From NCBI RefSeq assembly GCF_900149695.1, contig NZ_LT703003.1, forward strand, positions 1,054,001 through 1,118,000: a stretch of DNA of 64,000 nucleotides, read 5' to 3'. The position numbers were made by a program, and so were the translations under genes. The notes below the pieces were generated by a model that searched no databases, was not told where the DNA came from, and saw only the letters and a list, made by a program, of their open reading frames with translations. Below are positions 21,195 to 39,168 of this stretch, piece by piece; position 1 is the first letter of the stretch, and each line of letters begins with the position of its first letter. This stretch comes from Anderseniella sp. Alg231-50. Lineage in GTDB: Bacteria > Pseudomonadota > Alphaproteobacteria > Rhizobiales > Aestuariivirgaceae.

Positions 21195-21410
21195 AAGCCT
21201 GCCTGCGGACGTACGCCGCCGCCGATCTGGTACGTGCGAATATTATGTTGGTGATGCTGAAATGTATAGAGATGATCAATTTCTACCCGCTGTGGGCCGG
21301 CACTTTTGACAGTACAGATGCCAGTTGAACTGTAGTTCGTGTTGTTAATCGGGAAGCGGAAGAGCTAACCTGTGATAACGCTGGTAGCCTGTTAACTGGA
21401 GAGGCGGTTG

Positions 21411-22697: not shown

Positions 22698-22753
22698 TGT
22701 TCAAACGTCAGTTTCGCCGCATCTCCAATCGCAACAAATCTACTGTCAGGTGA
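22697..22753 (+). CDS. Possible 18-residue basic peptide
   Basis: ATG overlaps the radical SAM stop codon as TGATG and has a clean GGAG 6 bases upstream. The peptide would be MFKRQFRRISNRNKSTVR, very basic with no Cys. The coupling signal is good, but at 18 codons chance is a real explanation. I do not recognise it. It could be a leader or microprotein, or noise. Confidence 0.25.
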   Translation: MFKRQFRRISNRNKSTVR

Positions 22754-22838
22754 TTGAGTTTCTGCGAACTTCCAACGTGACAGCCGTGGGTTCGGTAATT
22801 ATTGACTGCAAGTGCGGCATGCCTGTATCGATTATCAC

Positions 22839-22856
22839 AACCGGAGGTGTCCGGTT
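22839..22856 (+). other. Hairpin upstream of the PqqD-like gene
   Basis: Perfect 7-bp inverted repeat AACCGGA/TCCGGTT with loop GGTG, 36 bases before the start codon at 22892, without a strong T run. It could partly terminate radical SAM transcripts or act on the downstream leader. Structure is seen; role is guessed. Confidence 0.35.
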
Positions 22857-22891
22857 TCATTGATCCGCAAGAAGTTGATTGAATCACCACA

Positions 22892-23317
22892 ATGAAGTTG
22901 TTTTATCTGAATCCGGTCGGTCTGTCTTATGAGGATTTTGGCGGGGAAATGGTCGCAGTCAATTTTGAAACCGGCAAGTATTACGGCCTGAGCGGCAGTG
23001 CTCTTGCAATATGGCAGCTTTTGATCCGGCCGCATTCGATAGACGAACTGGTGCTGGAACTTCAGAAACGCTATTTGCCCGGTGAACACGATATCCGGCA
23101 GATGGTCGAAGGCTTTGTCAAGATTCTCGATGACGAAAAACTGTTGCTCGAAATTGAAGCCAATGAGCAGATTGCTGTCGCGAATGATGCTGAGATGACC
23201 CCCTTCGAAGCACCCAACCTGGAAGTGCACAGCGATTTGCAGGAACTTATCATGCTTGACCCGGTACACGATGCAGATCCCGACCATGGCTGGCCGGTCC
23301 GACGTCCGGAATCCTGA
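22892..23317 (+). CDS. PqqD-like protein with acidic C-terminal tail
   Basis: Residues 1-90 match the PqqD/RRE fold that binds RiPP leader peptides: VAVNFETGKYYGLSGSALAIW followed by a helical half. Residues 104-141 are an extra tail with FEAPNLEVHSDLQELIMLDP, then VHDADPDHGWP and a final Ser141. From memory, similar DMQDLLLLDPIHDVD-type tails occur in other PqqD-like proteins beside HPr-kinase-like genes. The tail could be a substrate or docking peptide. It begins the run to the HprK-like, GT2, GT2 and nucleotidyltransferase genes. Confidence 0.83.
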   Translation: MKLFYLNPVGLSYEDFGGEMVAVNFETGKYYGLSGSALAIWQLLIRPHSIDELVLELQKRYLPGEHDIRQMVEGFVKILDDEKLLLEIEANEQIAVANDAEMTPFEAPNLEVHSDLQELIMLDPVHDADPDHGWPVRRPES

Positions 23318-23349
23318 CAACAGACCTGTTCGTGACCGCGGGGAGCCAG

Positions 23350-24417
23350 ATGATGAATGTTGAGGCATCCTCAATCGAAGAGTTCTTGCGAGCCAACATT
23401 TCATGTGCCCAGACGTTGTGGTCTGAACTTGGTGGCAGGCAGCGTGTATTCCGGTTTGGCCATGTCACCATGGCGGTTCGGTTCATAGCAGGCCATGCGC
23501 AAGCGGTGGTGTGCCCCGTTCTGGAACATGCTGAACAAACCGAAGGCAATGCCGCACCGGATGCGGTGGTGTATGTCCTGGTATCCGATCAGACCGGGGT
23601 TGCGCCGCCGCCCGGCCACTGGCCGTTTCCGGTAGAAAACACGCAGGATCATCAGCGCATATGCTGGCGGCCGAACGATGGCCTGGCGCTTTCGTCTGAT
23701 GATGAACGTGGCATCTGGCACTTGTTTGATCTGAAGTCCATGACCGGGCTCTACTGGCTGCGCGGCGATGACAAATTGCCGTACTGGGAATTCGGCTCTC
23801 CGCTTCGGCACTTCATCCACTGGACATGCCTGCAGTCAGATATCGCAATGATCCATGGTGCTGTTATTGGTCTGGATCAGCGTGGCATTATGCTGACCGG
23901 GGTCGGGGGCAGCGGCAAGTCGACGATGACAGCAGCTGCCATTTCTAGCGGCTGGCAAACAACAGGCGATGATTTTGTCCTTGTCGGCACGCAACCGGAC
24001 GCTGTGAGCTTTCCGATCTTCGATGTTTTGAAACTAACAGGCATGGCCGAGGAGATGTTTACCGATCAGGTTGCCATGGCGACAAATCAAAGTCGGACAG
24101 AAGGGGAAAAGGCATTGATCCCGATATCAAAGACAGCAGGAAAGAATTTTGTGCGTCAGCTCCCGGTGGAAGCTATTTTTTCCCTGCAGTTAACAGGTGT
24201 CGAGACCAGTAAGATTGAAGATCTTTCCAAAGTTGATGCAGTAGCTGCGCTGGCGCCATCGACAATGAACATATTGCGCACGGCCATGCCGGAGACCTTG
24301 AAACATTGCAGCTTGATTGCCAGGGCTCTACCCACTTACAAGTTGCTCGTCGGAACCAACCCCAGGGAAGGCCTGAGCGTGCTTCAGGAATTTCTACAGC
24401 AGCAGAGCAGGTCATGA
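23350..24417 (+). CDS. HPr kinase-like P-loop protein
   Basis: A 355-residue protein with a C-terminal HprK-type kinase core: MIHGAVIGL, Walker A GVGGSGKST at about 184-192 and the acidic DDFVLV near 207. The N-terminal half has no clear domain. GGGGAG lies 4-7 bases before two tandem ATGs (23350, 23353). True HPr kinases act on PtsH; HprK-like proteins next to RRE/PqqD genes include the lasso-peptide kinases that phosphorylate a C-terminal Ser. The stop overlaps the next ATG (ATGA). Target here unknown. Confidence 0.83.
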   Translation: MMNVEASSIEEFLRANISCAQTLWSELGGRQRVFRFGHVTMAVRFIAGHAQAVVCPVLEHAEQTEGNAAPDAVVYVLVSDQTGVAPPPGHWPFPVENTQDHQRICWRPNDGLALSSDDERGIWHLFDLKSMTGLYWLRGDDKLPYWEFGSPLRHFIHWTCLQSDIAMIHGAVIGLDQRGIMLTGVGGSGKSTMTAAAISSGWQTTGDDFVLVGTQPDAVSFPIFDVLKLTGMAEEMFTDQVAMATNQSRTEGEKALIPISKTAGKNFVRQLPVEAIFSLQLTGVETSKIEDLSKVDAVAALAPSTMNILRTAMPETLKHCSLIARALPTYKLLVGTNPREGLSVLQEFLQQQSRS

Positions 24418-25154
24418 ACGCCAATCCGAACATCAGTGTCATCATGCCGGTGCGCAATGGCGAACTGTTTGTGGCGGATGCGATAAAATCAATCCAGACA
24501 CAGTCCGTCGCGGTGACGGAAATTCATGTGATAAATGACGGGTCTACAGATGCCACCGCTGAAATCGTCTCGGCGCTGGCCAGAACTGACAGTTCAATCA
24601 TTGTTCATGACGGTCCGCAGAAAGGACCGGGTCCGGCACGCAATGTGGGGCTGAGGCGGGCAACCGGAGAGGTGATCGCGTTTCTGGATAGCGATGACCT
24701 GTGGCCGGCCGGTAAGCTGCAGACACAGGTCGCACGCCTGGTTGCCAAACCGGATGTCAGTATGGTTTCCGGCTTCGTGCTGTATTTTGACAAGCAGATT
24801 GAAAATGGCCTCGAACCGGCAAGCGATGCGCGCACCAGCGAGATATTCCACGTCCACCTGGGAGCCACGATCTACAGGCGGAATGTGTTTGACGAAGTCG
24901 GACTGTTTGATGAAACGTTCACGTATTCCGAGGATGTTGACCTAATGTTACGTATTCGTGAAGCGTCCTTGCCGTTCACCATCATGAATGAGATCACCCT
25001 GTATTACAGACGTCATGACAACTCCATGACCACGACTTTGACAACGACGGAGAAGCGGGATTTTCACCGCTCCCTGATCAACTCCCTCAAGCGTCGCAAA
25101 GCTGCCGGAATTACCGAGCCGTTGACGCCGTTTGCGGATGTGGTGGGATTTTAG
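24414..25154 (+). CDS. GT2-family glycosyltransferase
   Basis: Inverting GT-A glycosyltransferase of 246 residues: ISVIMPVRNGE start, NDGSTDAT at about 41, the DXD-type LDSDDLW at about 91-97, and GLFDETFTYSEDVDLMLRI near the acceptor site. ATG overlaps the HprK-like stop by four bases. Soluble, without TM helices. Sugar and acceptor unknown. Confidence 0.9.
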   Translation: MNANPNISVIMPVRNGELFVADAIKSIQTQSVAVTEIHVINDGSTDATAEIVSALARTDSSIIVHDGPQKGPGPARNVGLRRATGEVIAFLDSDDLWPAGKLQTQVARLVAKPDVSMVSGFVLYFDKQIENGLEPASDARTSEIFHVHLGATIYRRNVFDEVGLFDETFTYSEDVDLMLRIREASLPFTIMNEITLYYRRHDNSMTTTLTTTEKRDFHRSLINSLKRRKAAGITEPLTPFADVVGF

Positions 25155-25157
25155 AGA

Positions 25158-25865
25158 ATGAAAGTCAGTGCCATTGTTGCTGCGTGGAACGCCGCAGACA
25201 CGCTGCATGAGACACTTGACAGCATTGCTGCGCAGACAGTTAAGCCGGATGAGGTGATTGTTGTTGACGATGGTTCGACGGATGACACCGCGAAGGTCGT
25301 GGCGGAACACCCGCACAAGATACAGCTCATCCAGACCGAAAATCGTGGTGTTCCCAGCGCTCTCAATACCGGTATTGCGGCATCGACCGGTGATGCGATT
25401 GCCATCCTGGATGCCGACGATTTGTGGGAGGTTGATAAAACCCGACTGCAGATTGCTGCCCTGAACAGTGATCCGGCCATAGGCGTTGTTGTCGGCCATT
25501 ACGACACTTTTGAATGCCCTTCCATTCCGCCTGAGCGGTTTGCGACACTGAGTTATGTCAAAGGAGGTCGGCCCGGCTACCTGAACGGCTGTCTGCTCAT
25601 TCGCCGGCGCTGGGTGGCATCGGAAGAGTTCAAGTTTGATGAGACGTTGAGGAACGCTCATCTGGTCGAGTGGTTTCGCAACGCCCGTGTTGGCGGCATC
25701 GTGGAAAAAATCATCCCGGAAACCGTAATGAAGCGCCGTATCAGGCCGGGTACCCTCGGTGCACGCAAGGTTTCGGGTGCCGAGGATTCCATGAGTCCGT
25801 ATGTTCTCGAGGTGGCTCGCCGTGCCATTGCACAGAAACACAAGAAGAGGGGCAACCCTGTGTGA
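25158..25865 (+). CDS. GT2-family glycosyltransferase
   Basis: Second GT2 enzyme, 235 residues: VSAIVAAWNAADTLHETLDSI, VVDDGSTDDT at about 36-45 and ILDADDLW at about 83-90. It follows the first GT2 gene after 3 bases and its TGA shares a base with the next ATG (TGATG). The C-terminal part is shorter than in typical GT2 enzymes and basic at the end. The two GT2 proteins are only distantly similar, so this is not a recent duplication. Confidence 0.89.
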   Translation: MKVSAIVAAWNAADTLHETLDSIAAQTVKPDEVIVVDDGSTDDTAKVVAEHPHKIQLIQTENRGVPSALNTGIAASTGDAIAILDADDLWEVDKTRLQIAALNSDPAIGVVVGHYDTFECPSIPPERFATLSYVKGGRPGYLNGCLLIRRRWVASEEFKFDETLRNAHLVEWFRNARVGGIVEKIIPETVMKRRIRPGTLGARKVSGAEDSMSPYVLEVARRAIAQKHKKRGNPV

Positions 25866-26950
25866 TGTCGTTGAACTACCGGTTGAAAAACTGGTTTGCG
25901 CTGCAAGCCTGGCCTGACCCGAACACAGATCAGCTTATCAAGGCAACACTGCTTCCTATTGATGAGGCGCGGACTTACTGGCGCAACTGGAAAGCCGCCA
26001 ATGACATTGATGACTGTACCTGGCCGCAGTTCAAAATACTGGCCCGGTTTTCCGGGAGGTTGCCGAAAGTAGATCCGGAGTGTCCGGAGATACCCCGATT
26101 GCATGGCATGGCGAAGGCGCTTTGGACGAAGTCTCAAATGCAGCTAAACCGGTCAGCTGCCGCACTCGACATTCTGACCAAAAGGGATGTCCCCGTTTAC
26201 CTGATGAAGTCGGCTGCTCTTGAAGCCCTCGAAATGACCAAGCTGACCCGTCGCGTGACCTCGGATATAGACCTGATGGTGAAGCGCAAAGACCTTCGTC
26301 TCGTCGTATCCTCGTTATGTGAGCATGGCTGGGGCGGTGCTGAAGATGTGGAGACGGCTCTGCAAAGGTGCAGGTATCATGCCGGCATCAACCTGCAGCG
26401 CGGCAGTGAGCAGAACCGGGATAACTCGGATGTGGACGTGCATCATCAGCCTGTGCATATGCCGTTTCTTGATGATGAGGTGATTGCCGGAATCTGGGAA
26501 CGAGGGATCGCAGCCAACTTTCGCGGGCGTGATGTGCTGGTATCGGCGCCGGCGGAGTTGCTTGTGTTCACCGCAATGCAGGGTATACGCCGGTTTGTTC
26601 CCAGCCATATGTCCAGCGGCATGTGGGCCTTCGATCTGGCTGAGATAGTTGACAGCGACGATCTCGACTGGGCACGTGTCCTGGAAGTCGCCGCAATGTG
26701 CAAGGGCTCGTGGGCATTGCTCAGTTGCCTGAGTTACCTGAAACACGAACTGCGTATCGATGTTCCCGACCAGGTGCTCAGCCTGCTCGCAGGACAGGCG
26801 ACCGGCCTCGATGAAGCAGTGATGTTTTACGCGCAGGCGCCGACATATGGTGTCACAAAGATTTTCAACCTGCCATTACGCGAACTGGTGCTACTCAACC
26901 GTCAGAAGGTGTTCGCAGAAACCGGGTACCACGCGTCAAAGGATTGGTAG
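25865..26950 (+). CDS. NTP_transf_5-type nucleotidyltransferase
   Basis: A 361-residue protein of the uncharacterised nucleotidyltransferase family (NTP_transf_5). Metal-binding Asp pair in TSDIDLMVKR (about D134, D136), a third acidic patch in NSDVDVHHQP, and AELLVFTAMQGIRR. ATG overlaps the upstream stop as TGATG. Relatives sit in lasso-peptide loci with HprK-like kinases and modify the phosphoserine (e.g. PsmN), and also occur in glycan loci. It is last in the coupled run. Confidence 0.84.
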   Translation: MSLNYRLKNWFALQAWPDPNTDQLIKATLLPIDEARTYWRNWKAANDIDDCTWPQFKILARFSGRLPKVDPECPEIPRLHGMAKALWTKSQMQLNRSAAALDILTKRDVPVYLMKSAALEALEMTKLTRRVTSDIDLMVKRKDLRLVVSSLCEHGWGGAEDVETALQRCRYHAGINLQRGSEQNRDNSDVDVHHQPVHMPFLDDEVIAGIWERGIAANFRGRDVLVSAPAELLVFTAMQGIRRFVPSHMSSGMWAFDLAEIVDSDDLDWARVLEVAAMCKGSWALLSCLSYLKHELRIDVPDQVLSLLAGQATGLDEAVMFYAQAPTYGVTKIFNLPLRELVLLNRQKVFAETGYHASKDW

Positions 26951-27338: not shown

Positions 27339-29543
27339 ATGAATAACTTAGCTCAAAAGCACTTTAACGGCGTTGCGGACACCAGTGATGTCGAATTCAC
27401 AAAACTGTCGGATATCGATCTGTACCGGCGTGTTTCAAAGGGTGCCGGGACAGCTCAGATTGCCAGCGACAGTGACTGGCAGTCGCAAATCGACGCTCTG
27501 GCGCAGTCATTCCCTGATATGGCCCGTACCACATTGGTGCTCTCGGTGCTGGGGGTATACCTGTGCAGAACCTCCGAAGACCAGGAAGCGACATTCAAGC
27601 TGGTTAACGGAGTCCTGCCCGCGCAGGCAGGTATCGAATCCATCGTCCAGCTGGGCATTGAAGCCCGCGAAGCATTTGCAGGCTTTGCGAGCCGGGTGGG
27701 CGTTCAGCAAAGCATTTCTCTGGTCAGTGCCGCCGCCCACAACTATTACCACCGGGACAGTGTTTCTGACCTCATCGTGAGCATGGGATCGCTGCCGGCG
27801 GTTGATGTCGACGCAGATATTCATTTTCATGTCCACGAGGACGGACAGGTTGATATCCGTACAGCCGGCTATGTTGAACCGGAATATGCAGACCGCGTTT
27901 ACAGCCGACTGCTGACGCTTGCCGGCGATATTGCGAGAAATCCTTCCGGGCCCCTCGGACTTCATGAGGTGATGTCACCGGCCGAACGCAAAACCGTAAT
28001 CAACCAGTGGAACGAGACCAGCATCAACTACGGCTATGATGGCGGTCTTGTTGCAATGATGGAAAAGGCAGCCGAGCGTAATCCAGATCATCCGGCAATC
28101 ATCTTCAAGGACCAGGCGGTTTCCTTTGGCGAGTTCAACGGCAGGGTAAACCGCCTGGCACGCCAACTTGTCGAGGCTGGTGTCGGCAAGGATGATTTTG
28201 TCTGCATCTGCATGGAACGGAGCATCGAGATGGTGGTCGCCATCTGGGCCACGGTAAAAGCCGGCGGCGCCTATGTTCCTTTAAACACCGAGGATCCGCG
28301 ATCGCGGATTACGGAGATCATCGAAGATTGCCAGCCGAAAGCGGTGCTGACACAGCCGCACCTGGCCGATTGCCTGCCGCTGGACGCGGATGCGACCGTA
28401 ATCGGTGACGGGGCAGTCGATATAGCAGAGCGAAATGAGGACAATCTGGGCTTTGCGCCTGAACCCGATGCTCTGGCCTACATGATTTACACCTCTGGTT
28501 CGACCGGGAAACCGAAAGGCGTCACGGTGGAGCATGAAGCAATACACAACCGTGTTGTGTGGATGCACGAGGAGTACGGACTGCTCCCTGAAGACCGGGT
28601 CATGCAAAAGACCCCGTACACGTTCGATGTATCGGTCTGGGAGTTCTTCTGGTCCTTTGCCGTTGGCTCTACGCTGGTGGTTGCCGAACCAGGCGGCCAC
28701 GTGGCGATGCGCTATCTGTACACGCTGATGGACGTGCACCAGGTGACATACCTTCACTTTGTGCCCTCGATTCTGCGGCTTTTCCTGATGCTGCCGGACC
28801 TCGACAAGCTGCCGATCAAGAAGCTCTTCTGCTCAGGAGAGGCGCTCGGCTTTGACAGCGTGGAGACATTCTACCAAAAAGCCAACGCGCATGCTGAAGT
28901 CCATAATCTGTATGGACCTACGGAAGCTGCAGTGGATGTGAGCTATTATCACTGCCAGCGCAAGTCGTCAGATGGCATGATCCCGATCGGCAAGCCGGTG
29001 TCCAATACCGGCCTGTATGTTCTGGATGAGAATGGCCAGCCCTCGCCAATCGGGGTGCCCGGCGAGCTTCATATCGGCGGCATTCAACTCGCACGTGGCT
29101 ACTGGGCGCGCGAGGAACTGACCGCAGAGCGCTTTGTGACCACCGAGCTGCCAGACATCCGGTACAAGCGCCTGTACAAGACCGGTGACCTGGCCTATTT
29201 CCGCCGTGATGGTGAAATCGTCTACATGGGCCGGAATGACTTCCAGGTGAAAATCAACGGCGTGCGCATGGAACTCGGCGAGATCGAGACAGTGATCCGC
29301 AGCGACGAGAAAACCAAGGATGTTGTTGTTGTTGCTGAGGACATCAACGGAAATAAGAACCTGATTGCCTATGTTGTTTCCTCTGAACCCACTGCGGATG
29401 TCGCAGAAGCACTGAAAGCGCTGGTCGCTGAGAGCCGGCCTTCGTACTATGTGCCGCGGGAAATCCGGTTCCTTGGCGAGATGCCCCTCACGGTTTCGGG
29501 GAAGATCAACAGAAAGCTTCTTTCCGAGGTGCCTCGCCTGTAA
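27339..29543 (+). CDS. Stand-alone adenylation enzyme, predicted Ser-activating
   Basis: A 734-residue NRPS-like protein. Residues about 1-225 look like the C-terminal part of a condensation domain (DIHFHVHEDGQVDIR ... MSPAERKTVINQWNET) but lack HHxxxDG, so it should not condense. The adenylation domain follows: A3 YTSGSTGKPKG at 384, A4 FDVSVWEFF at 429, A5 NLYGPTEAAVD at 523, A10 SGKINRK with K722. No carrier domain is attached. Specificity residues D430 V431 W434 H473 F497 S499 L524 V532 D533 K722 give DVWHFSLVDK, the EntF serine code. AGGGA precedes the ATG. The free carrier at 38929 is the likely partner. Confidence 0.9.
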   Translation: MNNLAQKHFNGVADTSDVEFTKLSDIDLYRRVSKGAGTAQIASDSDWQSQIDALAQSFPDMARTTLVLSVLGVYLCRTSEDQEATFKLVNGVLPAQAGIESIVQLGIEAREAFAGFASRVGVQQSISLVSAAAHNYYHRDSVSDLIVSMGSLPAVDVDADIHFHVHEDGQVDIRTAGYVEPEYADRVYSRLLTLAGDIARNPSGPLGLHEVMSPAERKTVINQWNETSINYGYDGGLVAMMEKAAERNPDHPAIIFKDQAVSFGEFNGRVNRLARQLVEAGVGKDDFVCICMERSIEMVVAIWATVKAGGAYVPLNTEDPRSRITEIIEDCQPKAVLTQPHLADCLPLDADATVIGDGAVDIAERNEDNLGFAPEPDALAYMIYTSGSTGKPKGVTVEHEAIHNRVVWMHEEYGLLPEDRVMQKTPYTFDVSVWEFFWSFAVGSTLVVAEPGGHVAMRYLYTLMDVHQVTYLHFVPSILRLFLMLPDLDKLPIKKLFCSGEALGFDSVETFYQKANAHAEVHNLYGPTEAAVDVSYYHCQRKSSDGMIPIGKPVSNTGLYVLDENGQPSPIGVPGELHIGGIQLARGYWAREELTAERFVTTELPDIRYKRLYKTGDLAYFRRDGEIVYMGRNDFQVKINGVRMELGEIETVIRSDEKTKDVVVVAEDINGNKNLIAYVVSSEPTADVAEALKALVAESRPSYYVPREIRFLGEMPLTVSGKINRKLLSEVPRL

Positions 29544-29572
29544 CGAACGAAGTGAAAACCGACCCAGCGACG

Positions 29573-29605
29573 AAACCCGGGCCTGCCATGCAGCCCCGGG
29601 TTTTT
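29573..29605 (+). terminator. Rho-independent terminator after the adenylation gene
   Basis: AAACCCGGG at 29573-29581 pairs with CCCGGGTTT at 29595-29603, followed by T residues. It ends transcription 30 bases after the stop, so the gene is monocistronic at its 3' side. Confidence 0.87.
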
Positions 29606-29783
29606 CTTGTGAACAAATCTGCATGAACAGGATTCGGGATATGGTGCATGATTGCTGTAGCGCCCGGTGTGTCCGGACACGTTGTTGGCTACCCTGAGCG
29701 ATGTGCTGACTGTGCTGCCCGGCAGGGCGCAATGTGTTTGCAAGACAACCAGTTAAATAGAATACTGGCTTGAAAACAAAAAC

Positions 29784-31805
29784 TTATGCGGTCAAACGTC
29801 GTGCCAGAGCCGCACGCTTGCCGCTGATGTCCCGTAACATCCTGATGAGAAGATCTTCGTTACTGCAAGGCTTGCCGATCAGGTAACCCTGCATGGACTG
29901 GCATCCTTCCTGACGAAGAAATGTGATGTGCTCTTCGGTCTGCACGCCTTCAGCAATGATTTTGCAGCCCATCTGCAAACCCATGTTGATGATCGTGCGG
30001 GTGACAAGAGCTGCCTGCTCATTGCGGTTGCAATCCTCGATGAACGACCTGTCGATCTTGATCTTGTCAAACGGGAAGGCAATCAGCGTTGAAAGAGACG
30101 AGAAGCCGGTACCGAAATCATCAAGGGCAATTGAAACACCAAGATTTTTCAGGCCGCGCAAAACATGCAGCGCGCGGACCTTGTCATCAATCAGGACGCT
30201 TTCGGTCACTTCCAGCTCCAGCCGCTCTGGCTGCAGACCTGAATCGACCAGTGCCCGATGCACAACCTCAATGATATTGCTATCGCGAATTTGGACAGGA
30301 GAAACGTTTACAGCGACGGTCAGGGGTTTCGGCCAATGGGATGCGATCTTGCAGGCATTTTCCAGGACAACCTGACCCAGCTTGGTGATCAAGCCGCGTT
30401 CCTCGGCTATCGGAATGAATGTGGAAGGCGATATGATGCCAAGTTTGGGATGGGTCCATCGCGCCAGGGCTTCATGTCCTGTGATCTTGCCGGTTTCCAC
30501 ATCAGCCTGGGTCTGGAAATGGACATCTATATCTCCGGAATCAACAGCGACCCTCAGTTCCTGTCCCAGCATCCGTGCCTCACGGATTTTCCGGTCCATC
30601 TCCTCATTGAAAGCCTGGATCTGGCCGCTTGTCTGGCGTTTCGCCCGGTACATTGCCGTGTCTGCATTGGACAACAGTTCCTCGGCATTGCGGCCGTGTT
30701 GCGGATATTGGGCGACACCGATGCTGAGCCCGACCTGGAGCTCAATTCCGTCGATATGCATAACCCGTCCAACACACTCGATAAGCCGGTGTGCCAGCTC
30801 CGGTATCCGATCCTTGGCACCAGGGCCGCAGCGTTGAATTGCAACAAATTCATCTCCGCCAAGCCGGGCAAGGAAATCACCCTTGCGGCATGCCTTTTTG
30901 AACCTGCTCGTGACCTCTTTCAGAAGCACGTCGCCCGTGTGATGACCGTAGACATCATTGACTTCCTTGAACTTGTTCAGGTCAAGGATCAGCATGAAGA
31001 ATTCATAACCGTGCCGCTCTGCATTCTCGATTTCCGCTTCGATCCGTTCAACGAACGAGTTGCGGTTCGGCAAGCCGGTCAGTGAACAGTTCATCGCCAG
31101 GTGTGCTGCCTTGTTCTTGGCGGCTTCGCGTTCGCGAAGCGCTTCAATGTGCTGGGTTACATCGTGAAGCAGCAAGACCATTGCCTTGTCGGCCGTGTAA
31201 GAGACCTTTTTTTCATATACCCGGTTCCCGACGGTCAGCTTTTGCTTCTCGGCCAGCATCATTTTAAGGAAAGCCCTGGTCGATTCATCACTTCGCTTGC
31301 CGGTAGCATATTCGACGATCAGTTCGAATTCCGGATTCCAGACGCTTGGAACAAGGTTCTCGTCTACCATCACAACCCCGGCATTCACGTTTTCCAGCAC
31401 TGACTGGAATACGCGCTGGCGTTGGGTGTTGGCCAATGCATAGCGGATTGAACGGTCCAGTGTGTCAGACCGAAGGTTGATCTTGGAGATGAAGTCGGAA
31501 GCGCCCGCATTCAGCGCAGCTTCATCTGTAGACCGGTCATTCAGTCCGGTCAGCAGAATGATGGGGGTATCATCGCCGCGTTCCCGCTGCTCCTTGATGA
31601 AATCGATCCCGGTAACGCCTCCCATGCGGTAGTCGCACAGGACAATATCAGTCTTCGCCCCGCTCAGAATTTTTGCTGCTTCAGCGGGCAGGTTCGTCGA
31701 TTCGACCACGTAGCTCGACGCATCGATATCATTTATCAATTCCTGGATGAGGAAAATATCATCATCGTCGTCATCAAGGATCAAGACACGGGTCTTGTTC
31801 TTCAT
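29784..31805 (-). CDS. REC-GGDEF-EAL response regulator
   Basis: A 673-residue cytoplasmic c-di-GMP enzyme. Receiver domain 1-125 with acidic pocket and Asp58 (LCDYRMGG), a short PAS-like segment (about 140-230), GGDEF domain with intact GGDEF at 316-320, and EAL domain with EAL at 445-447, DDFGTGFSSL, KIDRSFI and AEGVQT. Both activities look possible; net direction cannot be told. ATG 31805 has AGGGG 8 bases upstream; an upstream start is poorer. It is the third gene of a signalling block on this strand, separated by a terminator from the kinase/regulator pair. Confidence 0.92.
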   Translation of the reverse strand: MKNKTRVLILDDDDDDIFLIQELINDIDASSYVVESTNLPAEAAKILSGAKTDIVLCDYRMGGVTGIDFIKEQRERGDDTPIILLTGLNDRSTDEAALNAGASDFISKINLRSDTLDRSIRYALANTQRQRVFQSVLENVNAGVVMVDENLVPSVWNPEFELIVEYATGKRSDESTRAFLKMMLAEKQKLTVGNRVYEKKVSYTADKAMVLLLHDVTQHIEALREREAAKNKAAHLAMNCSLTGLPNRNSFVERIEAEIENAERHGYEFFMLILDLNKFKEVNDVYGHHTGDVLLKEVTSRFKKACRKGDFLARLGGDEFVAIQRCGPGAKDRIPELAHRLIECVGRVMHIDGIELQVGLSIGVAQYPQHGRNAEELLSNADTAMYRAKRQTSGQIQAFNEEMDRKIREARMLGQELRVAVDSGDIDVHFQTQADVETGKITGHEALARWTHPKLGIISPSTFIPIAEERGLITKLGQVVLENACKIASHWPKPLTVAVNVSPVQIRDSNIIEVVHRALVDSGLQPERLELEVTESVLIDDKVRALHVLRGLKNLGVSIALDDFGTGFSSLSTLIAFPFDKIKIDRSFIEDCNRNEQAALVTRTIINMGLQMGCKIIAEGVQTEEHITFLRQEGCQSMQGYLIGKPCSNEDLLIRMLRDISGKRAALARRLTA

Positions 31806-32150
31806 TTCACGCCCCTTAGTTGCAAGCAGTAGGAATAGTGCGAAGACCGCATGCAATCATCGGGTGTAGCGTGAAGGCAGCTTTATTCCCTTAACGTCAG
31901 TCTGAAACCGGCTGTTTCAAGGTAACTTTCAACTGCCTTGATGAACAATGTGTTGCACCGGATGCTAAACTATTTCGTTGCCGGGAAACCAATGCACAGG
32001 AAACGCGCCCGGGCGGCACTTCGCTCAACCGGGCCGATGTTTCAGACCAAATCCATTGCAATCAAAAAGCCCCGCCATGGATTTCATGACGGGGCTTCTT
32101 GTTTCGCAGGTTTTGTCGACCTGCAGCATCTGGTTCAGGTGCATCACGCG
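31806..32150. other. 345-bp gap between signalling genes
   Basis: Holds the terminator at 32064-32098 for the upstream kinase-regulator pair and then about 250 bases that should carry the promoter and leader of the REC-GGDEF-EAL gene. No reading frame with a start site and family likeness was found. Confidence 0.5.
32064..32098 (-). terminator. Rho-independent terminator after the Rcp1-like regulator
   Basis: AAGCCCCG/CGGGGCTT 8-bp stem extended by CATG/CATG across one mismatch. On the minus strand it runs into TTTTT. It lies 52 bases after the response-regulator stop. Confidence 0.85.
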
Positions 32151-32600
32151 CTAGGCGTTTGCCGGAATTGCAACAATCTCGATCCAGTATTGTCTAAGCA
32201 CCTTCACCACATCGACAAGACGGTCAAAGGTGACCGGCTTGGTAATGAAGGAGTTTACACCCAGGTCGTATGTTTTGAGGATATCCTCTTCGGATTTTGA
32301 TGTGGTCAGCACAACAATTGGAATGTTGCGAAGCTTTGGATCTTCCCTGATTTCCTTAAGCGCCGTGCGGCCATCCTTCTTTGGCATGTTCAAGTCCAGC
32401 AAGATGATGCCGGGCAGGGGGATGTCGCCAGTATCTGCATATTGGCCCTCTTTGCGAAGGTAGTGCATCAGCTCCTCACCGTCCTTGACAAAGTCAATGG
32501 GATTCATGAGCCGGGACTCCTTGAAGGCGTCGGCAATCAGCATAAGATCGTCTTCGTCGTCATCAGCAATCAAGATTCTCACAGTGTCGTTCCTACTCAT
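32151..32600 (-). CDS. Rcp1-like single-domain response regulator
   Basis: A 149-residue receiver-only protein: ILIADDDEDD acidic pocket, phospho-Asp at about 69 in LLDLNMPKKDG, LTTSKSEED and the final SFITKPVTFD with Lys. The inserted LRKEGQYADTGDIPLPG loop is typical of cyanobacterial-phytochrome-type (Rcp1) regulators. No output domain, so it signals by contact or phosphotransfer. Its ATG overlaps the kinase stop by 4 bases (ATGA), so kinase and regulator are a pair. Confidence 0.92.
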   Translation of the reverse strand: MSRNDTVRILIADDDEDDLMLIADAFKESRLMNPIDFVKDGEELMHYLRKEGQYADTGDIPLPGIILLDLNMPKKDGRTALKEIREDPKLRNIPIVVLTTSKSEEDILKTYDLGVNSFITKPVTFDRLVDVVKVLRQYWIEIVAIPANA

Positions 32601-34582
32601 TGCAAATCCTCACTTTTTTCCTGTTCAACAGGAAGATCGATAATGAAAGTTGCTCCAACATCGGGAGTGCCGTCCGCGTCAATCACACCATTGTGGCGTT
32701 CGACGATCTTTCGGCATGTCGCCAGGCCAATACCGGTTCCCCCATACTCAAGACGGCCATGCAAACGCTGGAAGATTGTAAAGATCTGATCCTTGTATTG
32801 ATTGTCAAAGCCGATACCGTTGTCGGCCAGTTTGATGCGCCAGTATCTGACCTTGCCTTTGGCGTTGCTTTTGACCGAATGCTCTTCTGCCGAAACCCTG
32901 ATTACCGGATCCAGGTCCGGCTTCCGGAACTTCAATGCATTTGAGATGAGATTCTGGAAGAGTTGGCGCATCTGAATCGGATCGGCATCCAGTGCCGGCA
33001 ACTCACCGAACTCAATCGTGCCACCGGATTCCTGTAGCTGAATCTGCAGGTCCGATCTTACACCCTCGATAACCTCACACAGAGACACTTTCTCAAAAGG
33101 CTTCGCGTTGGTGGTCACGCGCGAATAGCCGAGCAGGTCATTGATAAGCTCACGCATCCTGAACGAGGCATTCTGCATGCGCTCAACAAACACCTTGCCT
33201 TCGTCCGGCAGGCTTTCGCCGTGCTTTTTGACCAGGCGGTCACCGAATGCCTCAATCTTGCGAAGGGGTTCCTGCAGATCGTGGGAAGCGACGTAGGCGA
33301 ATTCCTGCAGTTCCTTGTTTGAGCGGGCCAGCTTGTCATTGTAGGCGCGCAGGCGTTCTTCGTGGCGCTCAAGTTGAGTAATGTCCTGGTAAGTCGCGAT
33401 GGAGCCGCCGCCTGTCATCGGCTGGTTCATCACGGCCATCACGCGGCCATCGCGCAGGTACTGTTTGATCGTTGAGCGATGCGCCAGACGGCTTGGATTA
33501 TCGCGCGCTTTCAATGCCATTTCAGCATCTTCATCGCGGTAATTGCCCAGCGAGATACTGTATTTCATGATATCTGAGAGAAGCATGCCCGGCTTAACCT
33601 TTTCTGGCGAAAAGCCATACATTTCAAGGTATTGACGGTTGCATAAAATCAGACGCTGTTCGGAATCGAACATGCACAGGCCCTGAACCATGTTGTTAAG
33701 CGCAGTATCCAGGTGGGAACTTGTCGCGGTTAACTCGCTGGAGATATTCGCCACTTCCAGCTCGCGATTTTTCAATTCCGTGATGTCTGTGCGAATGCCG
33801 GCCGTGCCACCGTCCTCGGTGGCTTTCTCCATGATCCTGATCCAGCGGCCGTCTTCAAGCTGGCGTTCGTAGGGAACGCCGGGATTGCGATGGCGTTCCA
33901 TTTCCTGTTCGAAGATCTCTTCTTCCGACTGTCCGTCGCCCTGCAATCCTCCCCGCGAAATCCCTGTACGCAACATGGTTGCATAGTGCGCACCTGGTTT
34001 GATCAGGTCACTGATATGCGGGTTCAGCTCAACAAATTGCTGGTTGTAGACCGTCAGGCAGTCATTGGCGTCGTAGACCACGAACCCATCACCAATCGCA
34101 TCCAATGCCAACATCATCCGCGCATGGGCGAGCCGGGCGATCTGCTCCAGCGCGCTTACATCGGTGTTGCCGAGCTCGAGGTGCAAATTGTGGACGGTTT
34201 CGACAACCGAACCGTCCGGCCTCGGATTGCGGCTGATGGTAATCGTGTTGCCGTTGCGGGTCCTGAAATTGAATTTCTGCTTGCCCTGGAGCAGGCGGGA
34301 CGTTGAAGTTTTGATGGCCTGCTCGATTTCATCATGTTCAAGCGACTGACCGGACATCGATATCCTGATCAGTTCACGCAGGTTCCGGCCTTCGTGCAGT
34401 TCACGATCGTGATAGCCACACAAGTCCTTGTATTTCTGGTTGAAACTGACGAGGTTCAGATCTGGATCGAATATCGCCACACCGGCGTCGACCGCATCCA
34501 GCATCTCCCGGTCCTGCATTTTCTGCCCATCAGAATTTGCCGGCTCTGGTGCTGCCCCGGAGTTCGAAGTCTTAGATTTCAT
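32597..34582 (-). CDS. Soluble multi-PAS sensor histidine kinase
   Basis: A 661-residue kinase without TM helices. Three PAS-like regions (about 27-140, 150-270, 280-400; for instance AGVAIFDPDLNLVSFNQKYK and NNMVQGLCMFDSEQRLILCN), a HisKA domain with H-box ASHDLQEPLRKI (His about 434), and an HATPase domain with N-box ISNALKF, DNGIGFD and GTGIGLA. ATG 34582 follows GGGGA by 8 bases; a farther start at 34618 is weaker. It is transcribed divergently from the SBF/SGNH fusion gene, sharing a 242-bp control region. Confidence 0.92.
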   Translation of the reverse strand: MKSKTSNSGAAPEPANSDGQKMQDREMLDAVDAGVAIFDPDLNLVSFNQKYKDLCGYHDRELHEGRNLRELIRISMSGQSLEHDEIEQAIKTSTSRLLQGKQKFNFRTRNGNTITISRNPRPDGSVVETVHNLHLELGNTDVSALEQIARLAHARMMLALDAIGDGFVVYDANDCLTVYNQQFVELNPHISDLIKPGAHYATMLRTGISRGGLQGDGQSEEEIFEQEMERHRNPGVPYERQLEDGRWIRIMEKATEDGGTAGIRTDITELKNRELEVANISSELTATSSHLDTALNNMVQGLCMFDSEQRLILCNRQYLEMYGFSPEKVKPGMLLSDIMKYSISLGNYRDEDAEMALKARDNPSRLAHRSTIKQYLRDGRVMAVMNQPMTGGGSIATYQDITQLERHEERLRAYNDKLARSNKELQEFAYVASHDLQEPLRKIEAFGDRLVKKHGESLPDEGKVFVERMQNASFRMRELINDLLGYSRVTTNAKPFEKVSLCEVIEGVRSDLQIQLQESGGTIEFGELPALDADPIQMRQLFQNLISNALKFRKPDLDPVIRVSAEEHSVKSNAKGKVRYWRIKLADNGIGFDNQYKDQIFTIFQRLHGRLEYGGTGIGLATCRKIVERHNGVIDADGTPDVGATFIIDLPVEQEKSEDLQ

Positions 34583-34824
34583 TTTGCCAATCCCCAATTC
34601 CCGACGCTCAACTAGCACAAGGACGTTAACGCTTGGTTTGTTTCATTGCGGCGCGCTGTCCCCGAATCCACTGGCAACGTGCAGTGCATCTGTACAATGC
34701 ACTTAAGAGTTGATTCAGAAAATTACGGTACCGAAGTGCGTACCGCGGGACGGCGGAATAGAACCCAGGCGCAAAACCGGCATGGCACATGCCTGCTTGC
34801 AGCCATTTGATATTGAGTGGGCGG

Positions 34825-37266
34825 ATGCAGGCAGACGACGAAAAAACCCTTGCCGGATTATTACTTGCGCTAGGCGTGGTCCTGGCTCTCTACTTTCCGG
34901 AGCTATCGCCTTTCTTCGCACCTTATCTGCTGCCGTCGCTGTTTTTCGTCATGGTGTTTTCACTCCTGCCGTTTGCCCGGATTCGTGCGGACAAGCTCCT
35001 GCACCTTCATCCCATCGTAGTTCCACTGATTTTATGGCAGCAGTTGCTGTTGCCGATCGGGACAATCGTTGTTGGGCGGCAGATTGGTCTGGACACCCAG
35101 ATCATCTTCTTCATCGTCCTGACGCTTACCAGCGGATCGCTGTTCGCATCTCCAACCCTGGTGCAACTCATGGGCCTTGATCAGCGCATTGCGGTGCAAA
35201 CAGTGGTGCTGTCCACACTTGCAGCGCCCGGGTTTATCTACCTCTTCTTCAGTATTCTTCACACAGGTCCGGTTGATCTGGATTTGTGGAAATTCGGCGA
35301 GCGGCTGTTCTGGTTTCTGCTGGTTCCTGTTTGCATCTTTGTTGTTGCCCGCATGGTTGTCGGGAATTGGTCCGAAGCCAAGAAAGACCAGGTGGATCGC
35401 GTCGGCAGATGGGGCTCCGTCTTGTCGTTGGTTGTCTTCTGTTTTGCGCTGGAAGACGAGGTCAACATGCACATCGCCGCAAATGTGCAGGAAGTGATCA
35501 ACTACCTGTTTATCGGCACTGTAACTGCGGCGGGCGTGGCTGTTTTAACCCGCGCAGTCATGAGCCGCTTTGGGCCCCGTGCCGCGGCTACGGCAACGGT
35601 GCTGGCGAGTTTCCGCAATGTCGGTTTGACCTTTGGGCTGGTGGGATCAATTGCCGGTCCCGAAGTTGCTGTTTACGTGGGCGTTTGCCAGATCCCCATG
35701 TTCTGCGCACCGCTGTTCTTCGATCTGTTCATCGGCAGATCGCAGAAATCTGATCAGCCGGGCGATCAACACGCATCCTCAAAACCGTTACCGGATCCCA
35801 TACCAGACAGTCCGGATCCGACCGAAAAAGTCAGACAATCACTGCAGCAACTCAATTCATTGGTCGCGAGCCTGCAGCAGACAATATCAGAAAGAGAGAG
35901 ACCAGCTATGATCCAGAACACCGCACACTCGCCCGAGTCTGCCGGGTTGGCATATGATGGCAATGCAGCTCTCGCAGTCAGTGCAGAAGCGCAAAGCCAG
36001 GCGGTTAGCAGTCCAGCGAATCCAGACCAGGCGCCTCTTTCTGAACTACAGATCAGGATGGAAATCAGAAAACGCATGGTGGATGCGCGTGCACTGCTTG
36101 TCAGGCTCGAAACCGAGATGCACGAAACGACCGCCAAAATCATCGGGCACCCCGGTCGTTATCTTGCAGTCTTCGCGGTGCTTGCCACAGTGGGGCTCGC
36201 TGCGATCTGGCAAGGCAACAGATACTTCTATCCGATGCTGTTCAATGACGAGATGTTAGTCGAGGTTGCCGAAGCGCACACTCAAGGGCGCAACTATGGT
36301 GTGTTTGATCTCAACATCAATATTCGCGATCTGCGCGATGAAACCATAGAGCGTATGACGGGCACACCTGATCTCGTGGTGCTTGGTGCAAGTCATTGGC
36401 AGGAGGCGCATGTAGACCTGCTTCCGCAGTATAATTTCTACAACTCCCACGTTCATCGCGACTATTACGAGGACATGATGGCGGTAACCGAGATGTGGGT
36501 TCGCCATGACAAATTGCCCAAAGAGATGATCATTACCATTCGGGACAACCTGTTCACCCCGGTTTCCGAGCGTACCGACTTCCTCTGGTATCCGGGCATC
36601 AAATACTACCGGGATTTCGCTGACCGGATCGGGTTCAAGCCGCATGCCTGGTGGGAGACGCTGCCTTACCAGACCTGGCGTGAACTGGTTTCATTGCCGC
36701 TGCTTTGGTCGCAAGGGAAACATCAGCTGCAATCCGATGTCATGCCGCATGCCACGGATGCGCGGAACTTTGACGGCCTGGACACACTGCTCCCGGGAGG
36801 GTCCATCCTCTGGTCGGGTGAGCATCAACGCATCTTCACTGCGCAACGTGCCCGCGATGAAGCGTTGAATTTTGCCAAGGCCCGGCGCAATGACCCACCG
36901 AAGATTGACCCCAAGGGTCTGGTGCACATGGAAGCGCTGTTTGATTTTCTCAAAAAGCAGGGCGTCAAGGTGACGCTGGCCCACCCGCAGTTCAATCCGG
37001 TCTTTTGGGAGGCTGTTCAAGGCAGCCCGTATGTGGACGGATTGGGCAGAATCGAACAGATCACCCAGGACTGGGCCAAAAAATATGGCTTTGCAGTGAT
37101 CGGTGGATTTTCACCGGATGCAGTCGGTTGCCGGGCAGACCAGTACATTGATGCTGAACACGGCGATCCGGCATGCCTGGGCGCGCTGCTCGCTCAGTAT
37201 GATGTTGTGAATGGCCGGACATCTGCTGAAAAAACTTCCCGCACGAGCCAACTGAAGAAGCACTGA
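34825..37266 (+). CDS. SBF-like membrane protein fused to SGNH/DltD-like domain
   Basis: An 813-residue fusion. Residues about 8-305 form about ten TM helices resembling bile-acid:sodium-symporter (SBF/BASS) proteins, with ATVLASFRNVGLTFG near 258-270. A Ser/Gln-rich linker with coiled-coil (about 306-440) leads to one TM helix (about 446-464) and a periplasmic SGNH-like domain: nucleophile motif LGASHWQEA (Ser523) and C-terminal DAEHGD (Asp776, His779). This recalls DltD/AlgX-type partners of MBOAT proteins. ATG 34825 has GAGTGG upstream. MBOAT and carrier genes follow, which supports O-acyl transfer. Confidence 0.78.
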   Translation: MQADDEKTLAGLLLALGVVLALYFPELSPFFAPYLLPSLFFVMVFSLLPFARIRADKLLHLHPIVVPLILWQQLLLPIGTIVVGRQIGLDTQIIFFIVLTLTSGSLFASPTLVQLMGLDQRIAVQTVVLSTLAAPGFIYLFFSILHTGPVDLDLWKFGERLFWFLLVPVCIFVVARMVVGNWSEAKKDQVDRVGRWGSVLSLVVFCFALEDEVNMHIAANVQEVINYLFIGTVTAAGVAVLTRAVMSRFGPRAAATATVLASFRNVGLTFGLVGSIAGPEVAVYVGVCQIPMFCAPLFFDLFIGRSQKSDQPGDQHASSKPLPDPIPDSPDPTEKVRQSLQQLNSLVASLQQTISERERPAMIQNTAHSPESAGLAYDGNAALAVSAEAQSQAVSSPANPDQAPLSELQIRMEIRKRMVDARALLVRLETEMHETTAKIIGHPGRYLAVFAVLATVGLAAIWQGNRYFYPMLFNDEMLVEVAEAHTQGRNYGVFDLNINIRDLRDETIERMTGTPDLVVLGASHWQEAHVDLLPQYNFYNSHVHRDYYEDMMAVTEMWVRHDKLPKEMIITIRDNLFTPVSERTDFLWYPGIKYYRDFADRIGFKPHAWWETLPYQTWRELVSLPLLWSQGKHQLQSDVMPHATDARNFDGLDTLLPGGSILWSGEHQRIFTAQRARDEALNFAKARRNDPPKIDPKGLVHMEALFDFLKKQGVKVTLAHPQFNPVFWEAVQGSPYVDGLGRIEQITQDWAKKYGFAVIGGFSPDAVGCRADQYIDAEHGDPACLGALLAQYDVVNGRTSAEKTSRTSQLKKH

Positions 37267-37344
37267 ACCGGCCCGCAGACGAGCATTGAAAAGATCAGAG
37301 TCGCGGATTCCCGGCGCGGCAAAATTAAGTTGTAGGACGAAGCC

Positions 37345-38862
37345 ATGATTTTTAACTCATACGAATTCATTGTCATCTTCTTGCCAATTGCATTCGCAGC
37401 CGTAGCGCTTGCTCATGGTATCGGTGGATGGAACATGGCGTTTGCCGTGTTGGGACTGGCGTCCCTGGCATTCTATGCAAACTGGGGCCCTGAATTCCTC
37501 GGCATTCTGCTGGTTTCGATCATCTCCAACTATGTAATCGGAAGTATCATTATACGCTCCAGGGAGAACAGGCTTCACTCCCGATCCCTGCTGGCGATCG
37601 GAGTGCTCGGCAACCTGGGAGCGCTGGGCTATTTCAAGTACACAAACTTCTTCATTGATGTCGTAAACCAGACAACCGGGACCGGCTTCAGCCATCTCAG
37701 CATCATTCTGCCGATCGGCATTTCATTTTATAGCTTTATCCAGATCGGATACCTGATTGACGCCTATAATGGCATGGTCAAGGAAAAATCCTTCGTCAAG
37801 TACTTCACTTTCGCTTCCCTGTTTCCCTGTGTGACAGCCGGTCCGCTGGTTCTCCAGCGTGAGATTTTCCAGCAGATGGAAGATCGCAAGGATGCGTTCC
37901 TGGACATGACGCGAATAGCGGCCGGGCTTACCCTGTTCACGATCGGCCTGTTCAAAAAAGTGGTCTTCGCAGACGGTATTGCCAGCTATTCCGATACGGT
38001 CTTCAATGGTGTTGCCGCCGGGCAGGGGCTTGAGGTCATGACCGCCTGGCTTGGCGCCCTTGCCTATTCATTCCAGCTGTACTTCGATTTTTCCGGTTAT
38101 ACCGACATGGCGCTTGGCCTCGGTGCAATCTTCGGAATCATGTTGCCGCTTAATTTCAATTCGCCGTTCAAGGCAACCAGCATTTCAGACTTCTGGCAGC
38201 GCTGGCATATGACGATGACCCGGTTTTTCACAAACTACGTCTTTTCGCCAATGGCCATGAAAGGCATGCGCAAAGCAGTCGCCGGCAAGTACGGGCCTGC
38301 GCGCAAGTTTGTCGCTTCCGGCGCCTGGCCGATTGTCTTTACCATGCTGGTGGCAGGCATCTGGCACGGTTCAGGCTGGGTGTTCGTGATCTACGGTCTG
38401 ATCCACGGTTTTGCAATTGCCATCAACAATGCATGGAGGCATTTCAACATGCCAAAGCCGGCACCGGTCACAGGCTGGTTCCTGACAATGCTGGTGGTTG
38501 TCTGTGGCCTGGTTGTATTCCGCGCGCCTGACGTACCCACCGCCGTGACGATCCTGGCAACCATGTTCGGGGCAAGTCAGTTCATTGTGCCGCAGGGAAT
38601 TGAGGTTGTGCAACTTGCCGTGGCCGATGTTGTGCCGATGATTGTGCTGTTCGGCGCAATCGTGCTGCTGATGCCGAATTCGCAGGAAATCGTTTCGAAC
38701 ACCTGGATCTCAACGAATGACAAGCCAAAGTCGATCGGCAGGTTTGCCGAGAAGATACTCTGGATGCCGCAGGCCCGGTGGGGCCTGGCCATTGCCGGCG
38801 TATTCGTCGTTTCGTTTTCCATGATCGGATCGGATTCATCATTTCTTTATTATCAATTCTAA
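37345..38862 (+). CDS. MBOAT-family O-acyltransferase (AlgI/DltB/PatA-like)
   Basis: A 505-residue polytopic membrane protein with the MBOAT signature: FYSFIQIGYLIDAYNG, FDFSGYTDMALGLGAIFGI, FWQRWHMTM (His about 288) and AGIWHGSGW with the conserved catalytic His at about 341. AlgI and DltB move acyl groups across the inner membrane onto alginate or teichoic acid. AGGAC lies 9 bases before the ATG. It sits 78 bases after the SBF/SGNH fusion and 66 before the carrier protein, a Dlt-like set. The donor is inferred to be the seryl-carrier thioester. Confidence 0.93.
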   Translation: MIFNSYEFIVIFLPIAFAAVALAHGIGGWNMAFAVLGLASLAFYANWGPEFLGILLVSIISNYVIGSIIIRSRENRLHSRSLLAIGVLGNLGALGYFKYTNFFIDVVNQTTGTGFSHLSIILPIGISFYSFIQIGYLIDAYNGMVKEKSFVKYFTFASLFPCVTAGPLVLQREIFQQMEDRKDAFLDMTRIAAGLTLFTIGLFKKVVFADGIASYSDTVFNGVAAGQGLEVMTAWLGALAYSFQLYFDFSGYTDMALGLGAIFGIMLPLNFNSPFKATSISDFWQRWHMTMTRFFTNYVFSPMAMKGMRKAVAGKYGPARKFVASGAWPIVFTMLVAGIWHGSGWVFVIYGLIHGFAIAINNAWRHFNMPKPAPVTGWFLTMLVVVCGLVVFRAPDVPTAVTILATMFGASQFIVPQGIEVVQLAVADVVPMIVLFGAIVLLMPNSQEIVSNTWISTNDKPKSIGRFAEKILWMPQARWGLAIAGVFVVSFSMIGSDSSFLYYQF

Positions 38863-38928
38863 AACACCCGCCTTGTTAGTCGTTCAGTAACAGGCGGCTC
38901 GTAATTTGATGAAAAAGAGGGACCGACA

Positions 38929-39168
38929 ATGAGACTTTTCGAAACTGTAGCAAGCGTTCTTAACATCGACGCAAATTCACTGACCAACGAGTCCAACGGA
39001 CGTAACACCGAGAACTGGGACTCGCTGCGTCACATCGAGCTGATACTTGCTGTGGAAACAGCCTTTGGCGTGACATTCTCCATGTCCGAAATGGTCTCCA
39101 TGCAGGACCTTGGTGACATGCGTACGCTGCTTGTTGAAAAAGGCGTCACGCTGGAACAGGCTGCCTGA
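38929..39168 (+). CDS. Stand-alone acyl/aminoacyl carrier protein
   Basis: A 79-residue carrier protein with the phosphopantetheine serine at about 32 in ENWDSLRHIELI. It is acidic and helical, with the DSL motif. The best partner is the adenylation enzyme at 27339, which has no carrier domain of its own. GAGGG lies 8 bases before the ATG. No phosphopantetheinyl transferase gene is in the window, so a host enzyme must activate it. A DltC-like role is inferred from the neighbours. Confidence 0.9.
   Translation: MRLFETVASVLNIDANSLTNESNGRNTENWDSLRHIELILAVETAFGVTFSMSEMVSMQDLGDMRTLLVEKGVTLEQAA

Follow-up and report, generated by a model that had tools for sequence, protein, structure and literature searches.

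The locus described here raises a question of partnership. In the window (the whole 64,000-nucleotide stretch of Anderseniella sp. Alg231-50 DNA that was analysed), the gene for a free-standing adenylation (A) enzyme lies 9.4 kb from that of a lone carrier protein; do these two work together, and with the MBOAT and SGNH-like proteins encoded between them, as a Dlt-like system handling serine? The preliminary description of this DNA had proposed as much, and Pfam matches and motifs locate all four parts where it had put them (Table 1). Comparative genomics supports its picture of a Dlt-like system with a free-standing serine-type A enzyme and a lone carrier, with three corrections to the four-part make-up: the commoner loader among relatives is a SerRS-like amino acid:carrier-protein ligase (aaCPL), the SGNH-like part is fused to a BASS domain, and the neighbouring signalling genes have to be included. 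As three minus-strand signalling genes split the A gene from the rest, the parts in the window form one neighbourhood and not one operon.

Table 1 Features of the locus, in positions of the window.
Feature	Coordinates	Strand	Support
A enzyme P0001	27339..29543	+	PF00501 and PF13193 matches; code read
Receiver-GGDEF-EAL protein	29784..31856 (ORF extent; start codon not settled)	-	Pfam
Single-domain response regulator (receiver)	32151..32600	-	Translation; homologue P0022 matches PF00072
PAS histidine kinase	32597..34618 (ORF extent; start codon not settled)	-	Pfam
BASS-like/SGNH-like fusion P0004	34825..37266	+	TIGR00841, 4n7x, GAS/DxEH motifs, weak DltD likeness
DltB-like MBOAT	37345..38862	+	PF03062; PDB profile matches; motifs
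Lone carrier P0006	38929..39168	+	PF00550; alignment A2; Ser32

P0001 matches both the AMP-binding (PF00501) and AMP-binding_C (PF13193) families and, since it stops 12 residues past the A10 lysine (K722 of 734), has no carrier domain of its own. Residues ~10–211 correspond to the C-terminal lobe of a condensation domain (VIA-align against 8f7f: Z 18.0, rmsd 3.4, 197 aligned), and this combination of half a C domain with an A domain indicates an NRPS module that has been cut down. Only this N-terminal lobe was usable in the AlphaFold model, which was built from a four-row alignment and has a pLDDT mostly below 50 in the A core. The specificity code read from the protein is DVWHFSLVDK, which we take to be the serine code of EntF and not a code for D-Ala, in line with the serine-type assignment made beforehand. 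The same code is common to all five A-type enzymes considered below, and is carried by two of eight NRPS domains compared with them, these two being the nearest in the tree. A search of the PDB with the code region ranked the peptide synthetase 8xjz, a fuscachelin domain, teixobactin modules and EntF at the top, with the teixobactin entries giving serine in their titles. Against the DltA equivalog model TIGR01734, P0001 scored 276.6 bits, below the cut-off of 559.85. No MbtH gene was found in any of the nine genomes searched.

Directly upstream of the A gene (window 21408–26950) lie genes for a radical SAM/SPASM protein, an HprK-like kinase, two GT2 glycosyltransferases and an NTP_transf_5 protein. 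Membership of the A gene in this set was considered and rejected, as no homologues of the set stand beside the A gene in L101, L104 or L183; the contig of L100 stops inside the A gene.

The carrier P0006 was correctly recognised from the outset. It matches PF00550, and its phosphopantetheine site, Ser32, lies in an invariant column of the 12 sequences in alignment A2, which leaves out two of 13 extended loci (L032 and L040) whose contigs hold no carrier.

The earlier identification of the MBOAT acyltransferase is likewise sound. The protein scored 77.4 bits against PF03062 (cut-off 27) and 178.6 bits against the DltB equivalog model TIGR04091, covering nearly the whole model but remaining below its cut-off of 375, and a profile search of the PDB returned DltB chains as the only matches (E 7e-37). 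His288 and His341 are invariant in the alignment. The C-terminus reads FLYYQF, an instance of the acyl-shuttle motif FXYXXF, and F[LVI]YYxF closes the MBOAT wherever the gene is present (27 of 27 loci, counting the window). In the Dlt pathway, the carrier DltC gives D-Ala via DltB to the tyrosine of the FXYXXF motif in DltX, from where it passes to DltD, while in PatA the motif stands at the end of the MBOAT itself and acetyl is taken from acetyl-CoA (PMC12148441).

For the membrane protein P0004, a start at 34825, as originally given, fits better than the longer open reading frame from 34789, because Met13 of that longer frame is invariant in eight aligned fused proteins. A periplasmic SGNH-like domain had been proposed for this protein; its motifs fit a domain that is SGNH-like and putatively of the SGNH fold. 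The BASS domain had been missed. The chain adopts a bile-acid-symporter (BASS) fold up to about residue 320, with the SGNH-like domain at ~455–805. The match of P0004 to TIGR00841 (E 0.003) is far under the model cut-off, and the structure model, of moderate confidence overall (pLDDT 62.8), aligns with 4n7x (Foldseek E 9e-6; VIA Z 27.2, rmsd 3.3, 299 aligned). GAS and DxEH motifs are invariant in 11 of 11 aligned SGNH-like parts, and the GAS motif is kept in the window and all 27 related loci. Of the 13 extended loci, L034, L040 and L041 are absent from alignments A1 and A3. A Pfam search of the window yielded no model matching the SGNH-like part, the DltD family PF04914 included, and its profile gave only chance matches to PDB sequences; among the relatives, three of 11 SGNH-like parts match DltD weakly (best E 0.02) and five of 11 match DUF1574 weakly. 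DltD chains do appear in the Foldseek list for P0004, at E 0.06 to 0.5 and high rmsd. The VIA-align list contains no DltD chain, which does not count against the assignment because transporter folds fill that list. BASS and SGNH are fused in eight of the 27 related loci, and in the remaining loci either BASS has a gene of its own or none was seen in the stretch; L106, L109 and L115 carry them as separate adjoining genes, in contrast to the fusion in the window.

Relatives of P0004 led to the second kind of loader. Matches were found in 33 of 120 relatives, 14 of them over the SGNH part (its own genome included), and in all 13 extended loci the gene 3′ of the MBOAT resembles aaCPL, the copy in L033 being a remnant. 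One of these proteins, P0016 (403 aa), matches both the amino acid:carrier-protein ligase Bll0957 (3mey, E 9e-33) and type-2 SerRS (3w3s, E 4e-30); its alignment with type-2 SerRS has gaps near the pocket, which leaves the amino acid ambiguous. The zinc ligands are conserved in every row that covers them (C219 and E264 in 21/21, C370 in 20/20). Both loader kinds, aaCPL and A enzyme, are amino-acid-activating enzymes.

A scan of contigs with the SGNH alignment, taking one genome for each of 84,980 species, identified 27 related loci. The order in the extended loci is kinase | BASS - SGNH - MBOAT - aaCPL - carrier with a GGDEF-EAL gene mostly adjoining; some loci lack one part or end early. The aaCPL gene sits between MBOAT and carrier in 19 of 21 loci, and the remaining two end before the carrier. 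Shorter aaCPLs account for 87 further matches in a sample of 397 genomes of the order (L058 and L148, for example), with at most 38% identity to P0016. A link of these short forms to MBOAT genes was rejected for the 30 loci inspected, where ~1.5 kb on each side gave no match to MBOAT, SGNH or a P0006-like carrier.

The genes of the cluster occur together in related genomes, a check that the preliminary description had called for, with the loader exchanged. An aaCPL is present in 21 of the 27 genomes, reduced to its two ends in L103 and not found in five, and four of those five (L100, L101, L104 and L108) encode a P0001-type A enzyme (54–69% identity). The genome of the window, in turn, has no aaCPL at E 0.001. 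Among all 28 genomes the two loaders do not coincide: the five A-type genomes are without aaCPL and the 21 aaCPL genomes without a P0001-type enzyme, the other A domains in the latter reaching at most 36% identity to P0001. The exchange fits 26 of 28 genomes; the misfits are L103, with an aaCPL remnant and no P0001-type enzyme, and L125, where the contig ends and neither loader is seen. A one-sided Fisher test of the exclusion gives 2e-4, a value that ignores kinship and comes from cluster-based sampling: four of the five A-type genomes were themselves found via the cluster. In the 397 genomes, which were drawn evenly from the order, the SGNH gene is present in eight: six have a long aaCPL, G096 has a remnant, and the genome of the window is the one without any aaCPL.

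MBOAT and carrier are separated by 66 bases in the window and by 57, 95 and 115 bases in L100, L101 and L104, respectively, so no ligase gene is left there. In L108 no cluster gene was seen next to the A gene, which lies on a separate contig, and aaCPL is absent from the genome. The aaCPL of L103 (12654–13151, the same locus as L033 reversed) has lost its catalytic core in frame and retains 165 aa, while MBOAT, carrier and SGNH are intact. With a gutted aaCPL and no P0001-type enzyme, L103 indicates that the rest of the cluster can be kept when no loader is seen.

A tree built from SGNH, MBOAT and carrier, with 27 rows and without L125 because of its contig end, rejects a single clade of A-type loci (AU p 2e-64), and the distribution of loaders on it calls for at least three changes on well-supported branches. 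The A enzymes themselves (alignment A5, without the truncated L100 enzyme) form one clade against the eight NRPS domains, with the L108 enzyme sister to that of L104, though the clusters of these two lie far apart. These patterns suggest that the A gene has spread horizontally into genomes without aaCPL. A test on independent pairs, of which three were well supported, was not significant.

On this evidence we consider it likely that the locus encodes a Dlt-like system with exchangeable loaders, which takes an activated amino acid, here serine, across the inner membrane. Sequence shows which parts are present, that their catalytic residues are conserved, that they occur together and that loaders are exchanged; every chemical step, the amino acid and the acceptor are inferred. 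The A enzyme would use ATP to activate serine, as its code predicts, and load it as a thioester on the holo-form of P0006. The MBOAT would then transfer the seryl group off the carrier and onto the tyrosine in its own FLYYQF C-terminus, and the SGNH-like domain would take this group on its serine and hand it to an acceptor in the envelope. In most relatives a SerRS-type aaCPL would load the carrier, and an NRPS-derived A enzyme of serine type would have taken its place in five genomes, that of the window among them.

Could P0001 instead be an unrelated NRPS leftover, or serve another carrier, with P0006 loaded otherwise or not at all? The A gene and the carrier gene do not share an operon in the window, L103 retains its cluster although its aaCPL is gutted and it has no A enzyme, and the window's genome contains seven PP-binding places, so that P0001 could serve any of the six besides P0006, one of them in a 1463-aa protein that also contains an A domain. 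We nevertheless regard this as unlikely, given that A enzyme and aaCPL replace one another in 26 of 28 genomes, including one where the A gene is on another contig, and that three overlapping samples (120, 397 and 347 genomes, at different cut-offs) showed no further genome with a P0001-type enzyme. Nor was a condensation domain (PF00668), as an NRPS partner for P0001 would need, found in the window's genome at E 0.001; the half C domain of P0001 itself escaped this search, and remnants of such domains may therefore have been overlooked.

A Dlt-like machine passing serine to the envelope, which we prefer, must also be weighed against one acting on a small product. TRAP solute-binding genes of the DctP type occur near the cluster, at varying places, in 12 of 27 loci (L101, L103, L104, L106–L110, L115, L118, L122 and L123), and the solute-binding protein P0020 matches DctP. 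It is conceivable, but in our judgement improbable, that the product is a small aminoacylated molecule, acylated by MBOAT and SGNH and moved by BASS and the nearby TRAP transporters. The TRAP genes, and a BASS fold that in many loci is joined to the SGNH gene or adjacent to it, would suit such a product; on the other hand, the place of the TRAP gene varies, no TRAP homologue was found in the window, and polymers are the substrates of the known MBOAT-SGNH pairs that PMC12148441 names. That MBOAT and SGNH form an acetyl-CoA O-acetylase like PatAB, AlgIJ or Wss, with carrier and loader belonging to a separate pathway, is very unlikely, for although acyl-CoA users have such a fused shuttle motif (PMC12148441), the nearest solved MBOAT is DltB, a carrier user (PMC12148441), and throughout the family, as well as in an actinobacterium, the MBOAT has a carrier and an amino-acid loader as neighbours.

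For the family as a whole we incline to the view that these Gram-negative MBOAT-SGNH systems take carrier-bound amino acids across the membrane instead of acetyl groups, with either a SerRS-derived ligase or a horizontally spread serine A enzyme as loader. A distant cluster bears on the pairing of loader and carrier. In the actinobacterium Nonomuraea gerenzanensis (L184, 11914–17865) the order is SGNH - MBOAT - carrier - C-A enzyme, the gene for the 1011-aa C-A enzyme overlapping the carrier gene by 4 bases, and the MBOAT ends in FLYYRY. This arrangement supports a direct pairing of A enzymes with the P0006 carrier family. The A code of the Nonomuraea enzyme is DLYNLSLIWK, presumably of cysteine type. 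This different code speaks against serine as the single substrate throughout and, together with the ambiguous amino acid of the long aaCPL, means that serine may not be general.

The system combines features of several that are known. Like DltABCDX, it has an A enzyme, a lone carrier, a DltB-like MBOAT, an SGNH-like partner, a shuttle tyrosine and, as predicted here, a carrier-bound amino acid as donor. It departs from Dlt in its serine-type code in place of one for D-Ala, in an A enzyme and MBOAT that fall below the Dlt model cut-offs, in a shuttle motif fused to the MBOAT where Dlt uses the microprotein DltX, in the BASS fusion and, for most relatives of the window cluster, in the SerRS-like ligase that serves as loader. 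EntF-type serine NRPS modules share with P0001 the A-domain code and the C-terminal lobe of the C domain; in contrast to them, P0001 has no N-terminal half of the C domain, no carrier and no thioesterase, and no MbtH gene was found in the 9/9 genomes searched. Bll0957-type ligases are about 326 aa long. The loader of 21 of the 27 relatives resembles Bll0957 and keeps the zinc ligands Cys, Glu and Cys, but at 403 aa it has an extra N-terminal part and is tied to MBOAT-SGNH genes. An MBOAT with a C-terminal FXYXXF and an SGNH-like partner is shared with the O-acetylation systems PatAB, AlgIJFX and WssHIFG, which, unlike the present cluster with its carrier and amino-acid loader, work without a carrier (PMC12148441). 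AlmEFG, which places glycine on Vibrio lipid A, similarly feeds an envelope transferase in a Gram-negative from an A enzyme and a carrier; AlmG has an LPLAT domain (PMC3783018), whereas the transferase of this cluster is an MBOAT with an SGNH-like partner.

If correct, this view of the family would be the first to assign amino acid:carrier-protein ligases a function in the cell, and a Dlt-type carrier would here be paired with the built-in shuttle of the Pat type. Linkage of the long aaCPL to a transmembrane acyl-transfer machine makes the question of what these ligases do a testable one, and the exchange of a tRNA-synthetase-like for an NRPS-derived loader amounts to a natural experiment on carrier recognition. 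The clusters are also at odds with the Discussion of PMC12148441, according to which no carrier protein takes part in MBOAT-SGNH pathways apart from Dlt. We found no description of a cluster of this make-up in titles and abstract openings of the open-access literature, subscription papers being mostly outside the reach of that search.

The signalling genes that separate the A gene from the transfer genes recur in other genomes. The PAS histidine kinase gene is divergent from the transfer genes, a position common to many relatives; the place of the receiver gene (homologue P0022) in relatives matches that in the window; and the GGDEF-EAL gene adjoins many related clusters. This two-component and c-di-GMP gene set is part of the cluster and probably regulates it. 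As a guess, these neighbours suggest joint control with surface or biofilm traits.
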